IMG/VR virus record: IMGVR_UViG_3300028197_001183
Location: 27,220-91,219 of that record
Length of the DNA: 64,000 nt
Direction: 5' to 3' (one strand)
DNA from: a virus
Shown here: positions 26,938 through 64,000 of the stretch, in pieces
Layout: each line of letters starts with the position of its first letter
Position numbering within the stretch: position 1 is the first letter of the stretch
Position numbers and translations under genes: made by a program
The notes under the pieces: generated by a model
Told to the model about the DNA's origin: nothing
What the model saw: only the letters and a program-made list of their open reading frames with translations
The model's database searches: none

Positions 26938-28814
26938 TCACCCTCATTTCTGAGGAATTTGTTATACTCGACTGCGATGATTTTTGCTTGAGCACCAGAG
27001 GTGTTTCCTTGCAATGTCTCACCAGCAGCAAATTTGTAAGTTGGATCATTACTTTGGATTGATTTAACATCCAAATAATATTGACCTGACCTAGGTGCAA
27101 GTCTTCTTGCTGTTGTAGTTGCTGTGATGCCAGATGTCTGTCCAGCTACGACCTCTTCACCACCTGCAGTGGGGACATTAAACAGAGAAGCCGTAATGTA
27201 TTCAATTGTAATAATTGCAGTAGAGATATGTGAATCACCATCTCCTAATGCACCTGCAGATTGGACAGTAGCAACCAGTTGGTTAGGACTACCATCATAA
27301 ATTTGATCACCAATTTGGAAGAGTGTGGTATTTGTGCCACCCAATTCTTCCTCAATACCATATTTAGACGAGGCAACGCCTCCATCTAAATTAACTTGGG
27401 ATTCATAATCCGTTCCTGTGTTAAGAAGATCGGGAATACCATCTCCAAACTGTTGGATACCATCAGCATCAACATACTCTTCGTCATTATCTTCAAATTT
27501 TCTATTTTGGATAATTGTAAAAGGTGTGGTAAATGCAACAATATCATTACCTTCCAATTCAACCAGAGTATGTGGTGCAACACCAGTTGAAGATGATCCA
27601 GAAGTGCCTGCAAAGAATGCGATAATTTTAGACTTCTCACCTGATCTGCCAGCATCAATAAATGCCAACTCATCAACTTGGAATGTTAGATATAATGCTC
27701 GCTCGGTCTCATCCCAGTCATAGACAATAGCGACTCTATTAGTTGCGTTTTCAACAACACGTCTAACTTTATCAGTAACTTGGAAATTATAAAGAGTGTC
27801 TCCCGTTGCGGCATCATTTTGGAGAGTATCAAGAATGATCTTTTGGTCAAATCTAAAGTTTGTGCCCCTGTCACATCCATCAAATGTTGTAGCAGTTTTA
27901 CCTGTATATCTAACAATTTCTCTACCAAGAAGGAATTTACCAGATCCAGGATAAGGTGCAGTTGATTCAACATGAATGGTTTCGGTGCCAGTTGTCACGT
28001 CGGTCAGAATACCTGACAAATTATAAACAACAGAGTTTAGAGACTGTCTGTTTCTCGCAGTCTTGATTAGGTTTGTATCTCTAGTAAAGATGACCTGAGG
28101 GGAATTTACATAACCAGCACCACCTGCTATGAGGTCGATAGAAGTAATAGCACCAAGATCAATAAATGCCGCAGCACTAGCACCAGATCCACCACCACCA
28201 ATAATTTGAATTAGGGGAGGATCTTCAAAGAATTCACCAGAGTTAGTGAGGGTAATTGCCGTAACTTTACCAAATGGGTTTACACCAGCAACACCAGTTG
28301 CACCTTGACCACCACCACCTGAGATGATAATGTTGACATCTTCTTCGGTATAGTTTCTACCAAACTCTTCAATAGCAAGACCTGTGACTAGACCTGTGAT
28401 AGGCACCAACTCAGATCCAGATCCACCACCACCTTTAACTTCTGCGTCAGTGGCATAGTATTCATCACCAAACTGAGTCATCTGAATGAAGTCAATACCG
28501 CCGTCATCCTTCAGGAAGATCTTACCTTGAGCAGGGACAGATGCATCTTCATCTACAATTTCCAGACGCATGGGATCATACCCTTCACCTGGATCCAACA
28601 CTTCTACAGCAGTGATCTCACCACGAATACCATCGATGACTGGTCTAAGTACAGCATCTCTAATGGGTGTGCCGCAATTTTCAATACGAAGTCTAGGGGG
28701 GTCAGCGGGATCATACCCACTACCTCCTGCAGTAACATAAACTTCTCTTACCCCGAATATACTATTAAATACGGGGAAAATTGAAGCACCAGATCCAGGG
28801 ACTGTTCTTGTCAT
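26931..28814 (-). CDS. Beta-repeat virion structural protein (627 residues)
   Basis: The N-terminal 270 residues consist of GGSGY-type beta modules (TAGGSGYDPADPPRLRI, DPGEGYDPMRLEI, SGGGGQGATGVAGV, AGGAGYVNSPQVIF), the same family as in the giant gp7. The rest is mixed beta sequence. It includes FLLGREIVRYTGKTATTFDG, which resembles the short hairpin region near the start of gp7, and TSGA-type units near the C-terminus (AGQTSGITATTTA, LQGNTSGAQAKII). Its ATG shares a base with the stop of the upstream cupredoxin-fibre gene. It is a likely baseplate or fibre component; no precise function is known. Confidence 0.75.
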   Translation of the reverse strand: MTRTVPGSGASIFPVFNSIFGVREVYVTAGGSGYDPADPPRLRIENCGTPIRDAVLRPVIDGIRGEITAVEVLDPGEGYDPMRLEIVDEDASVPAQGKIFLKDDGGIDFIQMTQFGDEYYATDAEVKGGGGSGSELVPITGLVTGLAIEEFGRNYTEEDVNIIISGGGGQGATGVAGVNPFGKVTAITLTNSGEFFEDPPLIQIIGGGGSGASAAAFIDLGAITSIDLIAGGAGYVNSPQVIFTRDTNLIKTARNRQSLNSVVYNLSGILTDVTTGTETIHVESTAPYPGSGKFLLGREIVRYTGKTATTFDGCDRGTNFRFDQKIILDTLQNDAATGDTLYNFQVTDKVRRVVENATNRVAIVYDWDETERALYLTFQVDELAFIDAGRSGEKSKIIAFFAGTSGSSSTGVAPHTLVELEGNDIVAFTTPFTIIQNRKFEDNDEEYVDADGIQQFGDGIPDLLNTGTDYESQVNLDGGVASSKYGIEEELGGTNTTLFQIGDQIYDGSPNQLVATVQSAGALGDGDSHISTAIITIEYITASLFNVPTAGGEEVVAGQTSGITATTTARRLAPRSGQYYLDVKSIQSNDPTYKFAAGETLQGNTSGAQAKIIAVEYNKFLRNEGEY

Positions 28815-63467: not shown

Positions 63468-63571
63468 TAATCGGTGTAGGTGTCAGATAGGGTGTCTTCA
63501 GATGAATCATCATACTCGGGTGAATCTTCGTCTAGGATGTCATCAATCCAATCGTTGTCGATGTCATTCAT
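63467..63571 (-). CDS. 34-residue highly acidic peptide
   Basis: The ORF encodes MNDIDNDWIDDILDEDSPEY and an Asp/Ser-rich tail. It is coupled to the 55-residue ORFs on both sides by overlapping stop/start codons. Such acidic micropeptides could bind a basic partner; nothing is known. Confidence 0.5.
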   Translation of the reverse strand: MNDIDNDWIDDILDEDSPEYDDSSEDTLSDTYTD

Positions 63572-63735
63572 GAGCGGTAGTCCTCTGGGCGATTGGTGGC
63601 ATCTCTTGTTGTGGATTCATCTGTGGAAAACTCATCACTCACTGTGCGATTAGTCTTTGAATACTGTCTCTTTTCTCTAATAGATTTGGGGCGTCGTGAG
63701 TTGTGTAGATCGTTACGTTTGTAGGTCCTTCCCAT
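63568..63735 (-). CDS. 55-residue basic small protein, first gene of cluster
   Basis: The product begins MGRTYKRNDLHNSRRPKSIR and is Arg/Lys-rich with an acidic end (RPEDYRS). It follows the sigma70-type promoter by about 40 bases and starts the chain of overlapping small ORFs. I recall similar cyanophage proteins but know no function. Confidence 0.6.
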   Translation of the reverse strand: MGRTYKRNDLHNSRRPKSIREKRQYSKTNRTVSDEFSTDESTTRDATNRPEDYRS

Positions 63736-63776
63736 TAGTCAGCAGATCAAAAGTGTCTTTGGTTAACTACTCAATC

Positions 63777-63805
63777 AATATAGGATCAATTGGCATGATT
63801 GTCAA
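63777..63805 (-). promoter_or_regulatory. Sigma70-type promoter
   Basis: The minus strand has TTGACA (63805-63800), a 17-base spacer and TATATT (63782-63777), close to the bacterial consensus. It is placed about 40 bases before the 55-residue basic protein start. It suggests host-polymerase transcription, probably early or middle, of the small-ORF cluster. Confidence 0.75.
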
Positions 63806-63912
63806 GTGGTCTGTGTGGGTTTGTGTAGTGTCCTCGGTATACTTGACAAAAAAATCCTCTTGCGTTACGCTCTTAGGTAACTATAACTCCGTAGATATAA
63901 TTCTCGGAGGTA

Positions 63913-63920
63913 TATTTATT
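63913..63920 (-). promoter_or_regulatory. Late-promoter-like motif (AATAAATA)
   Basis: AATAAATA on the minus strand lies 178 bases upstream of the first small ORF, within the gene-free right end. It could give late transcripts of the same cluster, in addition to the sigma70-type promoter. Confidence 0.3.
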
Positions 63921-63932
63921 AAGGTATTTTAA

Positions 63933-63975
63933 TTATCCACAGGAAATGCGGAAACTGTGGAAATCATGTGGAAAA
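63933..63975. other. Cluster of DnaA-box-like motifs
   Basis: The plus strand has TTATCCACA at 63933-63941. The minus strand has ATTTCCACA (63964-63956) and TTTTCCACA (63975-63967). The first equals the general DnaA box, and the last resembles the form I recall from cyanobacteria. The rest of 63736-64000 holds the promoters above and no supported gene. Confidence 0.45.
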
Positions 63976-64000
63976 CTATTAGATAGGGACGATGTTAGCA

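Follow-up and report, generated by a model that had tools for sequence, protein, structure and literature searches.

How does a T4-like phage come to carry binding sites for the replication starter protein of its host? Bacteriophage T4 initiates replication by its own transcripts and by recombination, and we know of no use of host DnaA by T4. The DNA considered here, called the window, is a stretch of 64,000 nucleotides (positions 27,220 to 91,219 of IMG/VR virus record IMGVR_UViG_3300028197_001183) with a cluster of DnaA boxes close to its end. A preliminary description, made from the letters alone, had reported three exact or near boxes within 43 bases at 63933-63975, and this is confirmed. 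Do they titrate host DnaA, regulate the nearby promoter or mark an origin, as was then proposed? These roles are partly supported; we rank the origin first, a promoter switch second and titration third, a choice that reaches beyond the sequence evidence. The boxes match the host consensus, keep a fixed place and spacing, seem to be under selection as DNA, and have an A+T-rich neighbour and promoter-like motifs beside them. We tentatively favour the reading that, in a large share of T4-like cyanophages, the cluster serves a replication origin as its DnaA-binding part, an origin that would be part oriC and part T4-type promoter with unwinding element.

The box cluster and chance expectation

The phage is T4-like, judged from its gp25 and gp6 genes, and the DNA matches of the window are cyanophages (272 records, 207 of them named Synechococcus, 42 Cyanophage and 20 Prochlorococcus). 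The cluster lies in an intergenic stretch of 243 bases, from the end of a minus-strand gene (63979) to the start of a small open reading frame (ORF) (63735). A fourth box is about 300 bases away from the other three, inside the small ORF. Published work is cited throughout from excerpts of the papers. The boxes and the small ORF are:

63933 to 63941, plus strand: DnaA box TTATCCACA, exact match to TTWTCCACA
63947 to 63954, minus strand: central degenerate box TTTCCGCA, with a flanking box on each side, read from the sequence
63956 to 63964, minus strand: near box ATTTCCACA, one mismatch; the identical word stands at the same place in loci L013 and L016
63967 to 63975, minus strand: DnaA box TTTTCCACA, exact and equal to the published cyanobacterial consensus (PMC4674748)
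63622 to 63630, minus strand: fourth DnaA box TTTTCCACA, exact; in frame in the small ORF as Phe-Ser-Thr
63568 to 63735, minus strand: small ORF (MGRTYKRND..., 55 aa)

Across the window near-boxes are scarce (TTWTNCACA with at most one mismatch, 107 matches vs 156 expected from shuffles). An exact TTWTCCACA pair within 40 bp arose in one of 200 dinucleotide shuffles of the window, and the triple in none of 200. For the isolates S-WAM1, Syn9 and S-PM2, the number of such pairs was matched by none of 100 shuffles of each genome. The doubt raised in the preliminary description, that the motif might be no commoner here than in the background, does not hold: the boxes are far above background, conserved in position, and the sole paired boxes in the genomes that carry them.

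Conservation by place and by codon

The TTWTCCACA search was extended to 22 complete T4-like cyanophage records, isolates that were chosen rather than drawn at random, and to T4. Pairs within 40 bp are present in 12 of the 22: S-WAM1, S-SZBM1, Syn9, S-PM2, S-SM2, S-ShM2, P-SSM7 (whose site positions are shared by G013, the two being counted once), S-SM1, Syn19, Syn1, S-SSM5 and Syn33. In these 12 the pairs lie no more than about 0.7 kb apart, between 1.5 and 7.8 kb from baseplate gene 25 (gp25) on its 5' side; in the circular S-SZBM1 this span crosses the record start. The locus is near 52.6 kb in Syn9 and near 19.2 kb in S-PM2. The listings for the 12 pair-carrying isolates hold no paired boxes elsewhere in the genome, and in S-SSM5 the only two exact sites genome-wide are the locus pair itself. 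By recorded host, the pair is present in 11/13 Synechococcus phages vs 1/7 Prochlorococcus phages (Fisher p = 0.0044, kinship not controlled). This figure leaves out S-RSM4 and ACG-2014j, whose host field is empty and which have no pair; with both counted as Synechococcus phages the proportion is 11/15 and p = 0.020. The split allows the question to be asked whether a replication element bears on host range.

Is the position a product of searching for the motif? A motif-independent test used gp25 loci, the best 80 of 510 and hence close relatives, and found 81 sites in 383,262 bases upstream vs 3 in 459,801 bases downstream. Among the 32 of these loci with at least 6 kb upstream, 30 had a site and 19 a pair within 40 bp; no pair occurred downstream of gp25 in any of the 80. 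Conversely, an exact inverted-pair scan of viral contigs gave at least 120 loci, which were selected for the motif and are not used as a frequency. We judged 51 of them to be T4-like cyanophage from ORF matches, and among the matches listed the inverted pair was on the 5' side of gp25 and gp6 wherever these were in range, including loci where the small ORF and the upstream oxygenase gene were not found. The gap of the inverted cores is exactly 14 bases in 36 of 63 distinct cores (126 sources; 12 to 16 allowed), and TGCGGA or TCCGCA stands in the gap of 12 of the 63 vs 0.4% of shuffled gaps. In a separate set of viral contigs (L080, L088, L099, L139, L146, L158 and others, among the matches listed) an inverted DnaA-box pair encloses a conserved middle, forming a nearly constant motif of the type TTTTCCACAGATGCCCGTAAGCCTGTGGATAA; these contigs are mostly without cyanophage ORF matches.

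A profile from three aligned versions of the small ORF recovered 62 IMG/VR loci, which are related, so that counts among them are not independent. At least one exact box lies in the 800 bases upstream of the small ORF in 55 of the 62, and at least two in 43. Of the seven loci without one, four have fewer than 180 bases there and three (L070-L072) have the full 800. In total there were 116 sites in 41,980 upstream bases vs 59 in 280,733 other bases, and 53 of the latter are boxes within the small ORF itself, at +80 to +130, in 50 of the 62 loci. The upstream boxes are about 180-340 bases from the small-ORF start. In 12 larger IMG/VR records drawn from these loci there were 2 to 11 sites per record, with at least two together at the cluster locus in 11 of the 12 and one in G009.

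To reduce redundancy, 58 sequences (the window, S-WAM1 and 56 loci, with loci whose match start was below 250 left out) were collapsed by similarity to 36. The commonest 9-mer in the far upstream part is TTTTCCACA, present in 34/36, and the best unrelated word reaches 15/36. Within the small ORF, Phe-Ser-Thr is present in 28/36 loci, and all 31 of 31 copies are spelled TTTTCCACA (TTT TCC ACA). Elsewhere this spelling was used for 1 of 55 Phe-Ser-Thr occurrences (ORFs of at least 100 codons from all six reading frames of the contig, S-WAM1, Syn9 and S-PM2, not all of which are genes). Selection therefore seems to act on the DNA, and the word seems to be kept more than the peptide. The S-WAM1 relative of the small ORF has no Pfam match and belongs to phrog_3226 and phrog_1464, both of unknown function.

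Neighbouring motifs and known systems

What surrounds the boxes? The window edge is the end of the 91,219-base contig (G000), and the remaining features of the locus are:

63979 to 64000, minus strand: 3' part of the upstream gene, truncated where the contig stops; probably a 2OG-Fe(II) oxygenase, the final six codons being similar to those that close S-WAM1 gp172
63913 to 63920, minus strand: AATAAATA, T4-type late promoter-like by resemblance to the motif
63877 to 63936, no strand assigned: A+T-rich stretch, candidate duplex-unwinding element; 45 of 60 bases are A or T, a value reached by 0.13% of the contig's 60-base windows
63843 to 63871, plus strand: sigma70-like promoter TTGACA-17-TACGCT, directed at the boxes, read from the sequence
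63777 to 63805, minus strand: sigma70-like promoter TTGACA-17-TATATT, directed at the small ORF; the TTGACA is conserved in the alignment

The preliminary description had suggested looking for an AT-rich element, and one is present, adjoining the boxes. Near the boxes, the most A+T-rich 60-mer has a content that 0.10% of windows reach in S-WAM1, 0.13% in the contig, 0.55% in Syn9 and 0.93% in S-PM2; an unwinding role is judged from composition only. Promoter motifs were identified by eye and alignment. The words AATAAATA, CATAAATA or TATAAATA lie between boxes and ATG in part of the 36 dereplicated loci only. Sites like TTGACA-17-TACGCT occur at the same place in S-WAM1, P-TIM40 and the locus alignment. 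The usual order towards gp25 is boxes, A+T-rich stretch (with the late-promoter-like word in some loci), a TTGACA-type site facing the boxes, and a TTGACA-17-TATAAT-type site into the small ORF or its replacement.

Some candidates were dropped. An ORF of 78 aa on the plus strand at 63696-63932 is taken as spurious because it spans the promoter sites. E. coli origin 13-mers were the model for a search for tandem 12-mers in the A+T-rich stretch, where small autocorrelation peaks appeared at lags 4 and 12 against plain shuffles; they are weak, the loci are related, and no claim is made.

In S-WAM1 the end of the next gene adjoins the last box; the gp172 family is Pfam PF13759. With the oxygenase (P0003) as sole query, one locus was matched among viral contigs. 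Contig ends gather here: within 3 kb of the small ORF they are found upstream in 30/62 loci (14 within 600 bases) vs downstream in 1/62, the window's own end likewise, and among the gp25 loci (the best 80 of 510) 11 break off 7-8 kb upstream of that gene. As the upstream neighbour varies between loci, this place may be the border of a variable region. Farther off, window positions 31928-53803 (minus strand) form a single ORF of 7,291 codons, and a giant virion structural protein is annotated at the matching place in P-TIM40, P-RSM6, S-WAM1 and S-SZBM1.

How does this arrangement compare with origins already described? The excerpted account of T4 gives about 100 bp as the need of oriF and oriG, namely a promoter and an A+T-rich element forming an R-loop, and describes oriE as an early promoter and repeats (PMC3016281). 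The phage module likewise has a promoter adjoining an A+T-rich stretch, and, from sequence motifs only, this promoter reads into the A+T-rich element as at oriF and oriG. The promoter facing the boxes reads as sigma70-like TTGACA; the promoter of the oriF/oriG type is a middle-mode (MotA) one. T4 origins, unlike the cyanophage cluster, are without a DnaA-box pair. Both oriF and the cluster are near gene 25, but oriF is annotated 83 bp past its 3' end and the cluster is 1.5-7.8 kb on the 5' side. As these are opposite sides of the gene, nearness is noted and homology by place is not claimed.

DnaA sites beside an A+T-rich stretch occur in other mobile elements: the P1 oriR and mini-F origins carry sites for host DnaA in this position, with their own Rep protein and iterons. 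At the cyanophage locus no Rep protein or iterons of this type were recognised. The datA, DARS1 and DARS2 elements of E. coli resemble the phage locus as short non-coding elements with about three DnaA boxes, conserved by place (PMC4585315). The E. coli elements act on the nucleotide state of DnaA, and DARS2 needs IHF and Fis. The cluster has a core of about three boxes, as these do by count.

On the host side, TTTTCCACA is the published DnaA box of cyanobacterial origins, with Synechococcus elongatus PCC 7942 and Anabaena PCC 7120 named in the excerpt (PMC4674748), and the phage locus has a cluster of such host-consensus boxes, as an oriC does. Prochlorococcus origins have also been checked for DnaA boxes, the word not being stated in the excerpt (PMC2836286). 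Among cyanobacterial genomes, G051 has eight boxes packed into about 190 bases next to dnaN, 9, 11, 12 and 23 bp being among the spacings, and G160, of the same family, has a similar eight-box cluster; TTTTCCACA and TTATCCACA occur together in both. G048 has 11 boxes upstream of an ORF judged by eye to be DnaN, and in the G104 family box pairs are found in 28 of 29 genomes, with spacings near 11 and 21-23 bp common. These origins are like the phage locus in having the same TTTTCCACA with some TTATCCACA, clustered, in both orientations and at spacings of about 9-12 and 20-23 bp. They are unlike it in having eight boxes (G051, G160) rather than 2-5, and in adjoining dnaN, where the phage locus is instead beside T4-type promoters.

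Across the phylum sample the box triple occurs in 20/117 genomes. In 25 small genomes from it dnaN was found in 24, and a pair in two, among them G051, whose cluster adjoins dnaN. At the comparable dnaN loci, those in the translated strand and frame, the proteins are about 30% identical to those of G051 and G048; at least these genomes are therefore improbable as hosts of the phages, and little can be read from the absence of pairs in them. Several genomes of the G104 family also have a second conserved pair away from the main cluster, of the type TTTTCCACAGAT-N-GGGGCA-AAG-TTTTCCACA (for example at G104:C1:371348), possibly a DnaA control site. At L463, in a very A+T-rich genome of the phylum sample (G062), many exact TTATCCACA lie beyond the dnaN end, about 11 and 21 bp apart, with the E. 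coli-type box in place of TTTTCCACA.

Origin, switch or sink

We read the module as a hybrid origin because it joins DnaA-site features to a primer-capable promoter and has parallels in T4 oriF, oriG and oriE. Host DnaA would bind the boxes in their phased arrangement: two in inverted orientation at a distance of about 23 bp, often with a further one 8-12 bp off. With the distant box in the small ORF the array may be bipartite. Bound DnaA would help to open the adjoining A+T-rich stretch, and a transcript from the TTGACA-type promoter into that stretch could give a primer or R-loop, as at T4 oriF, after which phage helicase and primase would take over. Binding of host DnaA is likely on this evidence; duplex opening, priming and origin activity are less certain than binding. 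That early replication begins at such an origin in a large part of the T4-like cyanophages, with a need for both host DnaA and a phage promoter transcript, is conceivable but doubtful.

Several observations weigh against an origin. Ten of the 22 isolates have no pair (P-SSM2, S-RSM4, Bellamy, S-SSM7, ACG-2014j, P-TIM40, P-RSM6, P-SSM4, P-HM2 and P-RSM4, six of the ten being Prochlorococcus phages), so T4-like cyanophages can live without the cluster. T4 has no such pair in the same search, and DnaA has no occurrence in the review of T4 initiation that was searched (PMC3016281). The host consensus is the one published for cyanobacteria and may not be the marine hosts' own, and A+T-richness is usual for promoter regions anyway. 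In S-WAM1, Syn9, S-PM2 and the contig, GC skew does not shift consistently at the cluster; a skew change is not a required origin feature, and skew, which lends no support here, was dropped as proof of an origin.

Could the boxes instead be a DnaA-responsive switch? Bound host DnaA would then repress or activate the late-promoter-like site and the early promoters that stand back to back, and so set when the small ORF and downstream genes are expressed, with no replication start. This is the main rival, as the boxes share their intergenic stretch with a promoter hub and TTGACA-type sites persist in this position in the box-less P-TIM40, L070 and L071; promoters can therefore exist without boxes, and the boxes could be a modulator. 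However, their distance from the small-ORF start is beyond the usual reach of a repressor, and the box-facing promoter would yield RNA antisense to the upstream gene. We consider a switch rather unlikely. A sink or DnaA-state element like datA or DARS, through which phage genomes, as they multiply, take up or convert host DnaA and halt host replication, would gain from the many phage copies that presumably multiply the sites. But each genome has only 2-5 strong sites at the locus and few elsewhere, and a sink needs neither a fixed place nor phased spacing nor an A+T-rich neighbour; with sites so few and so fixed, this explanation is improbable.

Might another phage or host protein read a DnaA-like sequence? 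DnaA binding is predicted from sequence, and nearly half of the isolates (10/22) do without the pair. Against this, the word is exactly the cyanobacterial DnaA box given in the excerpt of PMC4674748, the two spellings stand together in the cluster next to dnaN in both G051 and G160, and the spacings match; such a reader is likewise improbable. Individual 9-mers of this type are common where DNA is A+T-rich, but a chance cluster without function has next to no probability after the shuffles of pair and triple, and we reject it on these, on conservation by place and on codon choice.

No prior report of the module was found in the open-access literature searched; subscription literature was outside the search, so one may exist. 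A term search of the S-SZBM1 paper (PMC9146016) gave no match for DnaA or promoter.

In-frame boxes with a fixed codon choice in a small gene are a clear case of DNA-level selection within coding sequence. The conserved cluster suggests that the phages carrying it borrow the replication starter protein of the host, and the module is a concrete candidate for the replication start of many T4-like cyanophages, open to test in laboratory systems such as S-PM2 on Synechococcus WH7803. If the hybrid origin is real, it would tie the phage to the replication-initiation machinery of its host, and to a type of host, since phages of Synechococcus commonly have the cluster and those of Prochlorococcus rarely do.
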